From Oceanibacterium hippocampi (GTDB lineage Bacteria; Pseudomonadota; Alphaproteobacteria; Sneathiellales; Sneathiellaceae), in contig NZ_FWFR01000001.1 in assembly GCF_900172325.1 (NCBI RefSeq), positions 682,001-746,000 of the forward strand: a stretch of DNA of 64,000 nucleotides, written 5' to 3'. Shown in pieces: positions 10,477 through 16,489 of the stretch. The position numbers were made by a program, and so were the translations under genes. Each line of letters begins with the position of its first letter. Positions within the stretch are counted from its first letter, which is position 1. Under the pieces are notes generated by a model. It did no database searches. It was not told the DNA's origin and was given only the letters and a program-made list of their open reading frames with translations.

Positions 10477-11408
10477 GCGGCAGAACGCGGATCCTGGTCA
10501 TCCGGCACGGCGCGCTCGGCGATGTCGTGATGGCGCTCTGGCCGGCGACGGCGATCCGCCGCGCCCATCCGGATGCCCATATCACGCTGCTGACCAGTTC
10601 GCCCTACCGCGCGCTCGCCGAGCGGTCGGGCCTGTTCGATGCCGTCTGGATCGACGACCGTCTGCGGCCGTGGCATGTCGCCAGCCACCTGAGGCTCGCG
10701 CGGCGTCTCCGCCAGGGCGGGTTCGCCCGGGTCTACGACCTGCAATGCTCCGGCCGCACCGATTTCTATTACCGTTTCTTCATGGCCGGTCGCCGGCCGG
10801 AATGGTGCGGCACCGCCGCCGGCGCCTCGCACCGGCACGACAATCCGCAGCGAAAGCGCCTGCATGCCCTCGACCGCTTTGCCGAGCAGCTCGCGGTCGC
10901 CGGGATCGGTCTCGGCGAGCGGCCGGCGCTTGCCTGGCTGGATGACGACGTGAGCGCCCTCGACCTGCCATCCCGTTACGCCGCGCTGATCCCGGGCGCG
11001 GCGCCGCACCGCCCGGAGAAGCGCTGGCCGGCGCCGCGCTTTGCCGAACTCGCGCGGGCGCTGGCCAAGAGTGGTCTGGCGACCGTGATTCTCGGCGCCT
11101 CCGCCGACCGGCCGCTGGCGGCCGAGATCGCCGGTATGGTGCCCGGTGCGCGCGACCTGGCGGGACGGACCGACCTCTTCGCCCTTGCCGGCATCTTGCG
11201 CCGGGCAGCCTTCGCCGTCGGCAACGATACCGGGCCGATGCATCTCGCGGCGGCGGTCGGAACGCGCTCGCTGGTGCTTTTCTCGGCCGCCTCCGATCCG
11301 GCCCTCTCGGCCCCGCGCGGGGCCGCGGTCGAGCTGCTGAGGGAGGACGATCTCGGCGATCTGGACAGCCAAAGGGTGCGGGCCCGGCTTTCCGTCTGGG
11401 CGCCATGA
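10473..11408 (+). CDS. Glycosyltransferase family 9 (heptosyltransferase-like)
   Basis: 311 residues. IRHGALGDVVMALW at the N-terminus and GNDTGPMHLAAAVG near residue 250 are hallmarks of the ADP-heptose:LPS heptosyltransferase family (GT9). Translation is coupled to the GT4 gene through ATGA, which supports the start chosen here over the upstream in-frame ATG. Together the two genes suggest a step in assembling the inner LPS core; the exact acceptor cannot be assigned. Confidence 0.92.
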   Translation: MSGRTRILVIRHGALGDVVMALWPATAIRRAHPDAHITLLTSSPYRALAERSGLFDAVWIDDRLRPWHVASHLRLARRLRQGGFARVYDLQCSGRTDFYYRFFMAGRRPEWCGTAAGASHRHDNPQRKRLHALDRFAEQLAVAGIGLGERPALAWLDDDVSALDLPSRYAALIPGAAPHRPEKRWPAPRFAELARALAKSGLATVILGASADRPLAAEIAGMVPGARDLAGRTDLFALAGILRRAAFAVGNDTGPMHLAAAVGTRSLVLFSAASDPALSAPRGAAVELLREDDLGDLDSQRVRARLSVWAP

Positions 11409-11502
11409 GGGGACCCCGGAAAGCGACGGAAAGCGCCACCCTTGCGGCCCGGTTCCAGCGAATTATCCTTTCTGAATCGGGGCTTTGGTGATTAATATTT
11501 CA

Positions 11503-11525
11503 TTGACTGCCGATATGTTATCGGC
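11503..11525 (+). promoter_or_regulatory. Possible infC promoter and small dyad
   Basis: In the 208-bp gap before infC, TTGACT (11503-11508) could be a -35 box, followed at once by an inverted repeat GCCGAT-N5-ATCGGC (11509-11525). The -10 box is not clear. The gap is otherwise featureless apart from A/T-rich bases at 11488-11503. Confidence 0.3.
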
Positions 11526-11602
11526 TAACCGCCAACGTCCCGCGGTCCGCCGCCGATTCGCCCTGTCAGGCGCAATTCCGGCACGGCCGCAATGGAAATG
11601 CG

Positions 11603-11619
11603 AAAGGAGGTTCTAAATA
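11603..11619 (+). promoter_or_regulatory. Shine-Dalgarno and AUA start codon of infC
   Basis: AAAGGAGG (11603-11610) lies 6 nt before ATA at 11617-11619. An in-frame TAA (11614-11616) directly precedes the ATA, so translation of infC cannot begin further upstream. Confidence 0.85.
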
Positions 11620-12156
11620 GCACGTCCACCTAGGGTTCTGACTCCCCCGTCCCGCGAGGGGCCGAGGGTTAACGACGAGATCGACGTCCCGAGCGTCCGC
11701 CTTATCGACGACAAAGGCGACAACCACGGTGTTGTGACCAAAGTGAAGGCCATGGCGATGGCCGAGGAGGCCGGTCTCGACCTCGTCGAGGTATCGCCGA
11801 ACGCCGCACCGCCGGTCTGCAAGCTCATGGACTACGGCCGCTTCAAATACGAGGAACAGAAGAAGGCGAACGAGGCGCGCAAGAAGCAGAAGACCATCGA
11901 GATCAAGGAGATCAAGATGCGTCCGAACATCGATCAGCACGACTACGACGTGAAGATGCGCGCGATCGACCGCTTTCTGTCCGAGGGCGACAAGGTCAAG
12001 GTCACGCTGCGCTTTCGCGGTCGCGAAATGGCGCATCAGGATCTCGGCATGCGCGTTCTCGACCGGGTCCGCAACGATACCGAGGAACAGGCCAAGGTCG
12101 AGCAGCTTCCGAAGATGGAAGGCCGCCAGATGACCATGGTGATCGCCCCTCGCTGA
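11617..12156 (+). CDS. infC: Translation initiation factor IF-3 (AUA start)
   Basis: 179 residues when begun at ATA. The conserved N-terminus (RVNDEI at residues 17-22) lies well upstream of the first GTG (11734) or ATG in frame, so a shorter start would delete an essential part of the N-domain. The remainder is canonical IF-3: the [15 protein letters not shown] linker helix and the C-domain ending [15 protein letters not shown]-3 binds the 30S subunit and rejects non-canonical start codons; rare start codons in infC (AUU in E. coli) underlie its autorepression, and AUA would serve the same purpose here. rpmI and rplT follow, as in most bacteria. Confidence 0.96.
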
Positions 12157-12172
12157 GCCGCGTTCCGCGGCT
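12157..12172 (+). other. Short perfect hairpin after infC
   Basis: GCCGCG-TTC-CGCGGC (12157-12171), 6-7 bp, directly after the infC stop. No T-run follows, so it is more likely a processing or stability stem within the infC-rpmI transcript than a terminator. Confidence 0.35.
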
Positions 12173-12227
12173 CTTGCGGGGGACCGGGCAGACCGACCTG
12201 GCGGATGTCTCCGCGCCTTGCGCAGGC

Positions 12228-12256
12228 TTGCATTCGCCAATACAGACAGCTATAAG
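12228..12256 (+). promoter_or_regulatory. Possible internal promoter for rpmI-rplT
   Basis: TTGCAT (12228-12233), a 17-bp spacer and TATAAG (12251-12256) lie in the 197-bp infC-rpmI gap. The -10 matches 5 of 6 consensus bases, the -35 only 3 of 6. Confidence 0.35.
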
Positions 12257-12353
12257 CATCGCCTTCATCGGGCGGTCCGGCCAGCACAGGGCATGCCGTG
12301 GCCGCCCCGAATGCTTCGCGTTGCGATGCGATGTGACAGACCAAGGAAGCAAA

Positions 12354-12551
12354 ATGCCCAAAATGAAGACGAAGAGCGGCGCCAAGAAGCGATTCCGCCT
12401 CACCGCGACGGGTAAGGTTCGCCGTCAGCTTGCCGGCAAGCGCCATGGCATGATCAAGCGAACCAACGACCAGATCCGCAATCTGCGCGGAACGACGATC
12501 ATGGCCGATGCAGACGCCAAGATCGTCAAACGCTACATGCCCTACGGTTGA
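12354..12551 (+). CDS. rpmI: 50S ribosomal protein L35
   Basis: 65 residues, very basic, with the family start [14 protein letters not shown] and the C-terminal KRYMPYG. The start follows AAGGA with 6-7 nt spacing. It sits between infC and rplT in the conserved order; 12 nt separate it from rplT. In E. coli L20 represses rpmI translation through the leader RNA; the 197-nt leader here could allow that, but I cannot show a pseudoknot. Confidence 0.97.
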
Positions 12552-12563
12552 GGAGAATAGACA

Positions 12564-12926
12564 ATGGCCCGCGTTAAGGGAGGTCCGCGCGCGCACGCCC
12601 GGCACCTCAAGGTCATCAAGGCCGCCAAGGGTTACCGTGGCCGCCGCAAGAACACGTTCCGCACGGCGGTACAGGCGGTCGAGCGCGCCGGGCAATACGC
12701 CTATCGCGACCGTCGCGTCCGCAAGCGCAATTTCCGCGCCCTGTGGATCCAGCGCATCAACGCCGCGAGCCGCCTGCACGGCGTGACCTACGGCCGATTT
12801 ATGTGCGGCCTCAAGGCCGCCGGCATCGAGCTTGACCGAAAGGTCCTCGCCGATATCGCCGTTCACGAGCCCGAGGCCTTCAAGTCCCTGGTCGACCAGG
12901 CGGAAAAGGCCATGGTCGCCGCCTGA
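12564..12926 (+). CDS. rplT: 50S ribosomal protein L20
   Basis: 120 residues, the usual length. The basic N-terminal extension and the globular part ([20 protein letters not shown]) are canonical. L20 nucleates early 50S assembly on 23S rRNA. It is the last gene before a strong intrinsic terminator. Confidence 0.98.
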
Positions 12927-12967
12927 CCGGATCAGGCCCGAACCGGATAGCCACAGACGGAATAGAG

Positions 12968-12999
12968 AAAGGGGCCTGATCGTTCGGCCCCTTTTTTTT
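12968..12999 (+). terminator. Intrinsic terminator between rplT and pheS
   Basis: Stem AAAGGGGCC (12968-12976) pairs with GGCCCCTTT (12986-12994) around a 9-nt loop, and the T-run extends to 12999. This is the clearest Rho-independent terminator in the window. It ends 11 nt before the pheS ATG, so the spacing to pheS leaves little room for a separate promoter. Confidence 0.9.
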
Positions 13000-13010
13000 G
13001 GTGAGATGCC

Positions 13011-14087
13011 ATGGCGGATTTGCAGCAGCTAGAAGTCGAACTGATTGCCGATATCGACGGCGCCGAGAACCTCGAGGCCCTGGAAGCCGTGCGCGTCGCC
13101 GCGCTCGGCAAGAAGGGCCGGCTCAGCCAGATGATGCGCGGCCTCGGATCGCTGTCGCCGGAGGAGCGGAAGGCCGTTGCCCCGGGTCTCAACCGGATCA
13201 AGGACGAGGTCAACGAGGCGCTGCTGCGCCGCCGCGCCGCGCTCGGACGGGCGGCGCTCGACGCCCGCCTGGCGAGCGAGCGGGTCGATGTCACGTTGCC
13301 GGTACGGCCGGAGCGCAGCGGGCGCATCCACCCGGTCAGCCAGGTGATGGACGAGATCGCCGAGATCTTCGCCGACATGGGCTTCAACATCGCCGAGGGT
13401 CCGGACATCGAGGACGATTTCCACAATTTCACGGCGCTCAACATCCCGCCCGAGCATCCCGCCCGGCAGATGCATGACACGTTCTATTTCAACGAGAAGG
13501 CGGACGGCGAGCGGATGGTCCTCAGGACCCACACCTCGCCGGTGCAGATCCGCACCATGCAGTCCGAGAAGCCGCCGCACCGCATCGTCGCGCCCGGCCG
13601 TACCTATCGGAGCGATTCGGACCAGACGCACACCCCGATGTTCCACCAGATCGAGGGCCTGGTCATCGATCGCGGCATCCACATGGGCCATCTCAAGGGC
13701 ACGCTGCAGGAATTCGCCCGGGCCTTCTTCGAGCTCGACGATGTCGAGATGCGCTTCCGCCCCTCGCATTTCCCGTTCACGGAACCCTCGGCCGAGGTCG
13801 ACATCCGGTGCCGCTTCGAGGGCGACAGCATCGCCATCGGCGAGGGTGACGACTGGCTCGAGATCCTCGGCTGCGGCATGGTGCATCCCCGCGTGCTCGA
13901 ACATGTCGGCCTCGACCCCGAGGAATACCAGGGCTTCGCCTGGGGCATGGGGATCGACCGGATCGCGATGCTGAAATACGGCATTCCCGACCTGCGCGCC
14001 TTCTTCGACAGCGATTTGCGCTGGCTTCGCCACTACGGCTTCCTGCCGCTCGACATGCCGACGCTCGGTGGAGGGCTCAGCCGATGA
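13011..14087 (+). CDS. pheS: Phenylalanyl-tRNA synthetase alpha subunit
   Basis: 358 residues. An N-terminal helical (coiled-coil) tRNA-binding part (1-100) is followed by the class II catalytic core: motif 2 region ([19 protein letters not shown], near 200-220) and motif 3 ([17 protein letters not shown], near 305-322). It works as an alpha2-beta2 tetramer with PheT to charge tRNA-Phe. Its stop overlaps the pheT start (ATGA). The start lies 11 nt behind the terminator; GGTGAG (13000-13005) can serve as ribosome binding site. Confidence 0.98.
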
Positions 14088-16489
14088 AATTCACCCTTGG
14101 CTGGCTGAAGAGCCATCTGGAAACCGATGCGACCCTCGACGAGATCGTTCTCAAGCTGACGGAACTCGGCCTCGAGGTCGAGGATGTGCGCGATCCCGGC
14201 GCCGAACTGGCGCCCTTCACGATCGCCCATGTGATCGAGGCGAAGCAGCACCCCGATGCCGACCGCCTGCGTGTCTGCACGGTTGATACAGGGTCCGGAA
14301 CGGTCCAGGTCGTGTGCGGCGCACCGAACGCGCGGACCGGCATGAAGGGGGTCTTCGCGGCGAGCGGCCTGACGATCCCGGGGACCGGGCTGCTGCTCAA
14401 GCCGAGCAAGATTCGCGGCGTCGAATCGAACGGCATGCTGGTCTCCGAGCGCGAGATGGGCATGTCGGACGAGCATGATGGGATCATCGAACTTGCCGAC
14501 GACGCCCCGGTCGGACAGCCCTTCGCCGCCTATGCCGGGCTGGACGACCCGGTCATCGATGTCGCGATCACGCCGAACCGGCAGGATGCGCTCGGCGTGC
14601 ACGGGATCGCCCGCGATCTCGCCGCCGCCGGTCTCGGCCGCCTGAAGCCGGTCGAGGCGACGCCGATCCCCGGCCGCTATCAGAGCCCGGTTTCGGTTCG
14701 CCACGAGCTCGCGCCCGGCCAGGCCGACGTCTCGCCGCTCTTCGTCGGCCGCCATGTGCGCGGCGTGAAGAACGGGCCGAGCCCGAAATGGCTGCAGGAC
14801 CGGCTGCGCGCGATCGGTCTCCGGCCGATCTCGGCGCTGGTCGACATCACCAATTTCGTGACCTTCGACCTCGGCCGGCCGCTGCATGTCTTCGACGCCG
14901 ACCGGCTGAGCGGCGGCATCCATGTCCGCCTCGGACGCGCCGGCGAGCGCTTCCTGGCGCTCAACGGCGAGGAATATGCCGTCGACGGGACGATGTGCGT
15001 GATCGCCGACGACAGCGGCGCGCTCGGTCTCGGCGGTATCATCGGCGGCGAATCGACCGGCTGCACCGAGGGCACCGTCAACGTGTTCATCGAGTCCGCC
15101 CTGTTCGATCCGATCCGCACGGCGATGACCGGCCGCAAGCTCGGCATCGAATCGGACGCCCGCTACCGCTTCGAGCGCGGCGTCGATCCGGCCTTCGCCC
15201 GTCCCGGCATGGAAGTCGCGACCCGGCTGGTCATGGAGCTCTGCGGCGGCGAACCGAGCGAGCTGGTGATATCGGGCGCCGAGCCGGACTGGCAGCGTCG
15301 GGTGACGCTGCGGCCGGAACGGCTCGCCGCGCTGACCGGCATCGCCATGTCCGAAAGCGAGATGGTCGCGATCCTCGGAAAACTCGGCTTCACCGTCGCC
15401 GCCGACGGCGGCGCTCTGCTGGTCGACGTCCCGTCATGGCGCCAGGACGTCTCGATCGAGGCGGACCTGATCGAGGACCTGGCCCGCGTCAGGGGCTACG
15501 ACGCGATACCCGCGGCACCGCTGCCGCGCCTGTCGGTGGTTGCCCGGCCGGCGCTCAGCCTTGCGCAGCGCCGGGTCCGTATCGCGCGTCGCGCGCTGGC
15601 CGCGCGCGGCCTGATGGAGGCGGTCACCTGGTCCTTCCTGCCGCGCGCCCAGGCGGCCCTGTTCGGCGGCGGCGGCGACGATCTGTTGCTGGCCAACCCG
15701 ATTTCCAGCGACCTCGACTGCATGCGCCCCTCGCTGTTGCCGAACCTGCTGACCGCGGCCGGGCGGAACGCCGATCGGGGCTTTGCCGATACCGCGCTGT
15801 TCGAGATCGCGGCCGACTACCAGGGCGACCGTCCCGAGGACCAGCGGCGGGTCGCCGCCGGCATGCGGCGCGGTCGCGAGGGCGAGCGTCACTGGGCGGA
15901 AGCGGCGCGGGCCGTCGATGCCTTCGATGCCCAGGCCGATGCGCTGGCCGTGCTGGAGGCCGCCGGCGCTCCGGTCGGCAACCTGCGGATCGTCGCCGAC
16001 GCGCCCGACTGGTACCACCCGGGCCGTTCGGGGCGGATCATGCTCGGACCGAAGACCTGCCTCGGCCAGTTCGGCGAGATCCATCCTGGCGTCCTCGAGG
16101 CGCTCGACGTGAAGGGTCCGGCGGTCGGCTTCGAGGTTTTCCTCGACCAGATCCCGGTGCCCAAGGCCAAGGGCAAGACCCGGCGGCCGCCGCTTCGGGT
16201 GTCCGATTTCCAGCCTGTGGAGCGGGACTTCGCCTTCCTGGTCGACCGCGACGTCGCGTCCGGCGATTTGGTGCGCGCGGCGGCCGGGGCCGACAAGGCG
16301 CTGATCGAGGATGTCCGCGTCTTCGACCTGTACCAGGGCGACAGGATGCCCGACGGCAAGAAGTCGCTGGCCATCGCCGTTCGCCTTGCGCCGAAGGATC
16401 GCACCCTGACCGACGCGGAGATCGACGCGGTCGGGCAGAAGATCGTCGACGCGGTGGCGAAAGCGACCGGCGCGACGTTGCGCGGCTGA
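14084..16489 (+). CDS. pheT: Phenylalanyl-tRNA synthetase beta subunit
   Basis: 801 residues. Domains in order: N-terminal EMAP-like tRNA-binding domain (about 40-150), B3/B4 editing domain (about 210-380), B5 (about 400-470), the inactive synthetase core and the ferredoxin-fold anticodon-binding domain (about 705-800, beginning at [15 protein letters not shown]). It is translationally coupled to pheS by a 4-bp overlap. Confidence 0.98.

Follow-up and report, generated by a model that had tools for sequence, protein, structure and literature searches.

A conserved terminator and a competing pairing between rplT and pheST in Oceanibacterium hippocampi suggest an attenuator without a dedicated leader peptide

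The gap between rplT and pheS of Oceanibacterium hippocampi (84 nt) carries an intrinsic terminator and, directly behind the rplT stop codon, an arm that can pair with the terminator in a mutually exclusive manner. Judged by its anatomy and conservation, this element is no artefact and not fully ordinary, and it appears to be a transcription attenuator. The more specific reading, in which rplT itself replaces the leader peptide and a ribosome at its stop codon covers the upstream arm to control pheST, strikes us as an evenly balanced proposition. It builds on features computed from the window (64,000 nt of contig NZ_FWFR01000001.1, analysed as a whole) and from related genomes, namely the terminator, the exclusive pairing, its family-wide conservation, the distance from the stop codon, the missing leader peptide, and a promoter motif upstream. 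The element would count as a variant form of attenuator in that it lacks the leader peptide, for which an essential gene seems to be the stand-in.

The genes infC, rpmI, rplT, pheS, and pheT were named by NCBIfam profiles, all above cut-off, and the relevant features are collected in Table 1. An initial sequence-only reading had described a hairpin with a 9-bp stem and an 8-T tail ending 11 nt before pheS, which proved exact upon direct reading of the letters; the upstream arm, located outside the coordinates of that reading, was absent from it. As expected of a plain terminator, a G+C-rich stem is followed by a T-run. When both strands of the 64-kb window were searched for at least eight perfect pairs, a loop of 3-10 nt, and at least six subsequent T, this was the sole hairpin found, while no such hairpin arose in 20 dinucleotide shuffles of the window; when the 84-nt gap was shuffled 20000 times, one arose once. 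A simple terminator scan with a loop limit of 8 lacked the hairpin, the loop of which comprises 9 nt, and a search of the organism's own genome with the hairpin pattern returned one other site.

Table 1. Features of the rpmI-rplT-pheST region (positions within the window).
Feature	Position	Strand	Basis or remark
Putative sigma70-type promoter TTGCAT-17-TATAAG of the rpmI-rplT(-pheST) unit	12228-12256	+	Motif score
rpmI, ribosomal protein L35	12354-12551	+	NCBIfam TIGR00001, E 8e-23
rplT, ribosomal protein L20 (stop 12924-12926)	12564-12926	+	NCBIfam TIGR01032, E 3e-46
Antiterminator 5' arm GATCAGGCCC, starts 3 nt 3' of the rplT stop	12930-12939	+	Perfect reverse complement of 12972-12981
Intrinsic terminator hairpin	12968-12994	+	Read directly in the sequence
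Hairpin 5' arm AAAGGGGCC	12968-12976		Direct read
Antiterminator 3' arm GGGCCTGATC	12972-12981	+	Overlaps 12972-12976 of the terminator 5' arm and 12977-12981 of the loop
Hairpin loop TGATCGTTC, 9 nt	12977-12985		Direct read
Hairpin 3' arm GGCCCCTTT	12986-12994		Direct read
Run of 8 T of the terminator, its first three letters still part of the stem	12992-12999	+	Sequence
T-run end to pheS ATG (13011), 11 nt, GGTGAGATGCC	13000-13010
Possible pheS ribosome-binding site GGTGAG, directly 3' of the T-run	13000-13005	+	Function inferred from position
pheS, phenylalanine-tRNA ligase alpha	13011-14087	+	NCBIfam TIGR00468, E 6e-105
pheT, phenylalanine-tRNA ligase beta (start overlaps pheS stop)	14084-16489	+	NCBIfam TIGR00472, E 1e-207

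Since GATCAGGCCC perfectly complements GGGCCTGATC inside the 5' arm and loop of the hairpin, terminator and antiterminator exclude each other, with an overlap of 10 perfect base pairs in the window. When the upstream stretch was shuffled 50000 times, at least ten perfect pairs were reached in 82 cases, and the duplex energy beat that of shuffles with p 0.012 (0.006 in a stricter test), which places the window alone between p 0.012 and 0.0016. Folding of a window RNA that ends 5' of the terminator 3' arm gave the antiterminator (-22.8 kcal/mol), whereas an RNA including that arm folded into the terminator. The terminator state is the stabler of the two (by 7.4 kcal/mol for the window, by 2.2-13.2 kcal/mol across the 29 loci folded), so that antitermination must be kinetic or assisted; at equilibrium, the default outcome predicted by these folds is termination.

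Among the genomes compared, that of O. hippocampi is the sole member of its genus within a family of two genera, and its closest named relatives belong to Sneathiella. The family sample encompassed 24 other genomes, 22 of which had an rplT match, and all 22 possess both the terminator and a significant competing pairing (p 0.002-0.042), albeit with sequences so akin that they are not independent of one another. Together with the window, the pairing thus reaches p <=0.05 against shuffles in 23/23 family members; in a stricter version of the test, whose pattern three of the 23 did not match and which therefore covered the other 20 rplT-pheS gaps, 20/20 were significant.

For a wider comparison, 80 of 564 relatives were kept from one search, and 30 + 75 loci were taken from 109 genomes with an rplT match (G051, G055, G069, and G097 were left out). 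After removal of seven loci for want of an rplT match (L044, L066, L088, L093, L099, L100, L108), four of 179 remaining gaps turned out to be exact duplicates, leaving 175 distinct gaps to be scanned. Terminators were called in 94 of these, distributed over the 23 family members, 56 loci elsewhere with pheS within 400 nt, and 15 without. At p <=0.05, the pairing was found in 23/23, 8/56 (L031, L035, L036, L037, L038, L077, L139, L149), and 1/15, respectively, with a median p of 0.52 over the 56, and the idea of the antiterminator as a general alphaproteobacterial trait was therefore rejected. The pairing of L056 stands at p 0.054 and its partial transcript does not adopt the antiterminator fold. 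In L035/L036/L038 and L037/L056, the arms mostly lie more distant from the stop codon.

To place these loci on a PheS tree of 108 rows, a label for the pairing was assigned to 31 rows, comprising the family, three named Sneathiella copies, L031, L035-L038, and L056; L077, L139, and L149 stayed unlabelled despite p <=0.05, and L077, the only one of the three present in the tree, lies far from the family. The label requires 2 changes as compared to a mean of 27.1 in shuffles, a clustering that is inflated by near-copies. The tree places L035/L036/L038 as the family's sister group (support 91/76), and L031 as well as L037/L056 fall into an unresolved fork.

As a control, 115 rows of same-shaped terminators were gathered from 25 genomes of the order, and 40 that do not belong to rplT-pheS were picked before their flanks were seen. 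A significant upstream complement accompanied 1/40 (median p 0.58), and an earlier small control taken from the flanks gave 1/12 terminators at p <=0.05. In the positive control, Escherichia coli K-12, both pheM and the antiterminator arm were recovered (arm p 0.034). Searches of plasmids returned merely chromosome-like pheS matches.

Pairwise identity, measured over ten stretches of the gap in the 22 Sneathiella-type loci, was highest for the upstream arm of the antiterminator, CGGGCCCTCGAAA (0.986); values of other stretches were 0.94 for the T-run, 0.86 for the arm shared by both structures, 0.79 for the terminator 3' arm, 0.61 for the loop of an inner hairpin, and 0.44 for the terminator loop. 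Third codon positions of rplT and pheS reached 0.63 and 0.55. A plain terminator would not need so tightly kept an upstream arm. The inner hairpin, UCGAAA..UUUCG, is enclosed by the antiterminator in the Sneathiella-type loci and accounts for both of the two pairs (of 12) with double changes in an RNAalifold analysis of the 22 relatives, none being located in the antiterminator stem, which is invariant across these loci. In a hand-anchored comparison, the sixth antiterminator pair (pair 6) changes between lineages, from A-U in the window to G-C in the Sneathiella-type loci and the sister loci and to C-G in L031; one alignment that misplaced the window's arm was excluded from the pair counts. 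Covariation hence lends the antiterminator weak support.

No dedicated Phe-rich leader peptide is present according to a scan of 146 gaps for short reading frames (ATG, GTG, or TTG start, 5-40 codons, at least three Phe and at least 12% Phe), which retrieved candidates in 11 gaps but in neither the window nor any other member of its family, and which recovered pheM in E. coli as positive control. The remark of the sequence-only reading that no such peptide is visible thus holds. What precedes the antiterminator arm instead is the rplT stop codon, at a distance of 3 nt in the window and 6-8 nt in the 22 relatives, that is, within 3-8 nt in 23/23. Judged by the size of a ribosome footprint, a ribosome at this stop codon would cover most of the arm. 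With the 12 nt directly behind the stop masked, the partial-transcript fold became weaker in 23/23 family members examined; for the window, its energy went from -22.8 to -4.9 kcal/mol. It is because of the lack of a Phe-rich reading frame, the proximity of the arm to the rplT stop, and the effect of this mask that rplT is proposed as the leader reading frame.

In the mechanism we propose, a polymerase from the rpmI promoter would transcribe rpmI-rplT and then enter the gap, where 12930-12939 would pair with 12972-12981 before the terminator 3' arm exists, and the resulting antiterminator would let it continue into pheST. If a ribosome kept pace and reached the rplT stop, its footprint would lie over most of 12930-12939, the antiterminator would be blocked, and the terminator would end transcription. 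If translation of rplT lagged, for instance at the Phe codon that precedes the stop by 15 codons, or through a general slow-down, the arm would be left free, the antiterminator would form, and PheRS would be made, with rplT taking the role that the leader peptide pheM has in E. coli. We infer from this architecture that termination is partial, that the antiterminator acts in vivo, that the rplT-translating ribosome is the input, and in which direction the system responds. Specificity for Phe is doubtful, since there is one Phe codon near the end of rplT (TTC, 12879-12881, 15 codons 5' of the stop; 16 in L003 and L004), and this is probably there for the structure of L20.

The arrangement resembles E. 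coli pheST in its operon position between rplT and pheS and in the combination of a terminator with a competing upstream pairing. The geometry at the stop codon is similar as well: in E. coli, the arm starts 4 nt after the pheM stop (first paired base at 5) and would therefore be covered by a ribosome located there, as compared to 3-8 nt after the rplT stop here. In contrast, E. coli has a separate Phe-rich leader reading frame of 14 codons, and 214 nt lie between its hairpin and pheS, whereas the called hairpin ends 14-18 nt before pheS in the 22 relatives and 12 nt before it in the window. Attenuation of E. coli pheST is described in PMC4082710, with a promoter 368 nt before pheS and thus inside the 450-nt gap of E. 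coli, and PMC5371410 presents pheM as a leader that is rich in Phe and has alternative structures.

A ribosome at the end of a reading frame that would mask a downstream RNA element is furthermore reminiscent of tnaC, where the ribosome stalls over a Rho site, masks it, and thereby allows readthrough. Here, unlike in tnaC, masking would hit the antiterminator and lead to intrinsic termination, and there is no arrest peptide. PMC12218461 mentions tnaC-type control and describes an attenuator with an upstream reading frame in Sinorhizobium that acts by a different, presumably Rho-dependent mechanism. RNA termini have been mapped in Zymomonas (PMC7566282), in a study whose main text does not contain "pheS". 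No account of an alphaproteobacterial rplT-pheS attenuator was found in the literature searched, the coverage of which was partial.

Using scoring weights of our own, the 140 nt 5' of rpmI beat shuffles at 0.05 in 23/23 (the window and 22 relatives), and the best match there is TTGNNN-17-TATAA(C/A) in 22/22 Sneathiella-type loci. The simplest route to pheST would be readthrough from the rpmI promoter. Another scenario, which we regard as very improbable, is that pheST has its own promoter in rplT or the gap and is independent of rplT translation; with a start at or within the hairpin, the terminator would merely end the rplT message. Several promoter-like motifs speak in its favour: TTGACC-16-TATCGC at 12832 in the window's rplT (equalled by 6-7% of shuffles), TTGAAA-17-TA(T/C)CG(C/T) about 250 nt 5' of the stop, inside rplT, as best site of rplT and gap combined in 16/22 relatives (e.g., L005, L009), and a weak TAGACA/TAGACT-16-TATTAA in the gap of some loci. 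Sites inside rplT score 13.2-14.8 in the relatives as compared to 13.2-16.7 before rpmI and so overlap with the weaker rpmI promoters, and gap shuffle fractions of the 22 relatives range from 0.08 to 0.51 (14/22 below 0.2). Taken together, rplT and the gap score better than shuffles at 0.05 in 6/23. In addition, PMC4082710 reports an alternate E. coli promoter about 45 bp before pheS. However, the site before rpmI beats its shuffles in 23/23; the TAGACA part is not conserved across the genus; and a promoter in the window's gap was rejected, as that gap lacks such an element and scores at chance (shuffle fraction 0.91). A weak promoter inside rplT is conceivable, and the TTGAAA motif may be a by-product of coding sequence. 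An RNA starting there would carry no translated rplT and, like that from any start 5' of the hairpin, would still have to pass the terminator. The sequence-only reading had listed readthrough, a promoter in rplT or the hairpin, and attenuation as possible routes to pheST; among these is the best-supported answer, attenuation with partial readthrough, which is favoured by the conserved competing pairing.

Rather doubtful, but the most serious competitor, is a plain partial terminator that fixes PheRS output at a fraction of ribosomal-protein output, with an upstream complement that merely weakens it and without any regulation of the terminator. Internal partial terminators are found behind ribosomal-protein genes in the rplL-rpoB attenuator and in rpsU-dnaG, which share with the present case the succession of a ribosomal-protein gene, a terminator, and the gene of a less abundant enzyme; moreover, in 48 of the 56 non-family alphaproteobacterial loci with an rplT-pheS terminator the complement is non-significant. 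We know of no description of rplL-rpoB or rpsU-dnaG that includes a conserved competing antiterminator beside the stop codon. Against a plain terminator, the upstream sequence is constrained (identity of the arm 0.99 in the 22 Sneathiella-type loci, the best conserved of the stretches measured), 39/40 sampled terminators of the same genomes lack such an arm, and a terminator would suffice by itself to set a fixed leak. Less probable again, and in our view unlikely, is a folded domain of the gap RNA, closed by the antiterminator stem, to which a trans factor or ligand would bind; candidates are L20, PheRS, uncharged tRNA-Phe, and a metabolite. This would account for the inner hairpin of the Sneathiella-type gaps and for the stretch GACCACTTTATTAAAA 5' of the terminator (identity 0.91 in the gaps of L003-L027, e.g., L003:1414-1491), which has no clear role in either RNA state. 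This inner stretch, however, is missing from the window and from L031, and Rfam covariance models gave no relevant family in the window at gathering score, a T-box riboswitch or L20 leader included; the six matches obtained for 11400-13100 at E up to 10 comprise neither of the two and no other relevant family.

Combining both ideas, rplT could be the sensor reading frame while the Sneathiella antiterminator forms a conserved junction (the UCGAAA hairpin plus GACCACUUUAUUAAAA) that would also read a trans factor, be it L20, PheRS, or uncharged tRNA-Phe, and would couple ribosomal-protein output to aminoacylation capacity; we consider this a long shot. Returning to attenuation with rplT as leader, amino-acid attenuators are taught as requiring a dedicated leader peptide. 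That the position and the stop-codon geometry of the E. coli pheST attenuator are kept without one suggests that an ordinary upstream gene can substitute. If this is true, translation may be sensed by many of the terminators that separate ribosomal-protein genes from translation-enzyme genes in compact operons, with an antiterminator arm within ~10 nt of the upstream stop codon as searchable signature.

Some observations concern the neighbourhood of the element. The rpmI leader (12262-12354), which follows the conserved promoter, harbours a G+C-rich hairpin, GGGCGGTCCGGCC..GGCCGCCC, with counterparts AGCATTCCGGCCAA..GGGGCTGCCGAG..GCT in Sneathiella-type loci. It is a candidate L20 operator; in the window, its fold has a z of -1.9 (9/200 shuffles equally good), and no relevant Rfam family matched this leader. 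Further upstream, a terminator-like hairpin with a T-run was seen by eye after infC in several Sneathiella-type loci (L006, L008, L012, L020, L023), and other loci had no infC match 5' of rpmI within the stretch examined. When the infC reading frame of the window is taken from its first ATG/GTG/TTG (11734), it falls short of the profile by about 28 residues at the N-terminus. In the stretch upstream and in frame (11617-11733), AGGAGG (11605-11610) is followed by ATA at 11617, and infC may accordingly start at the rare codon AUA.
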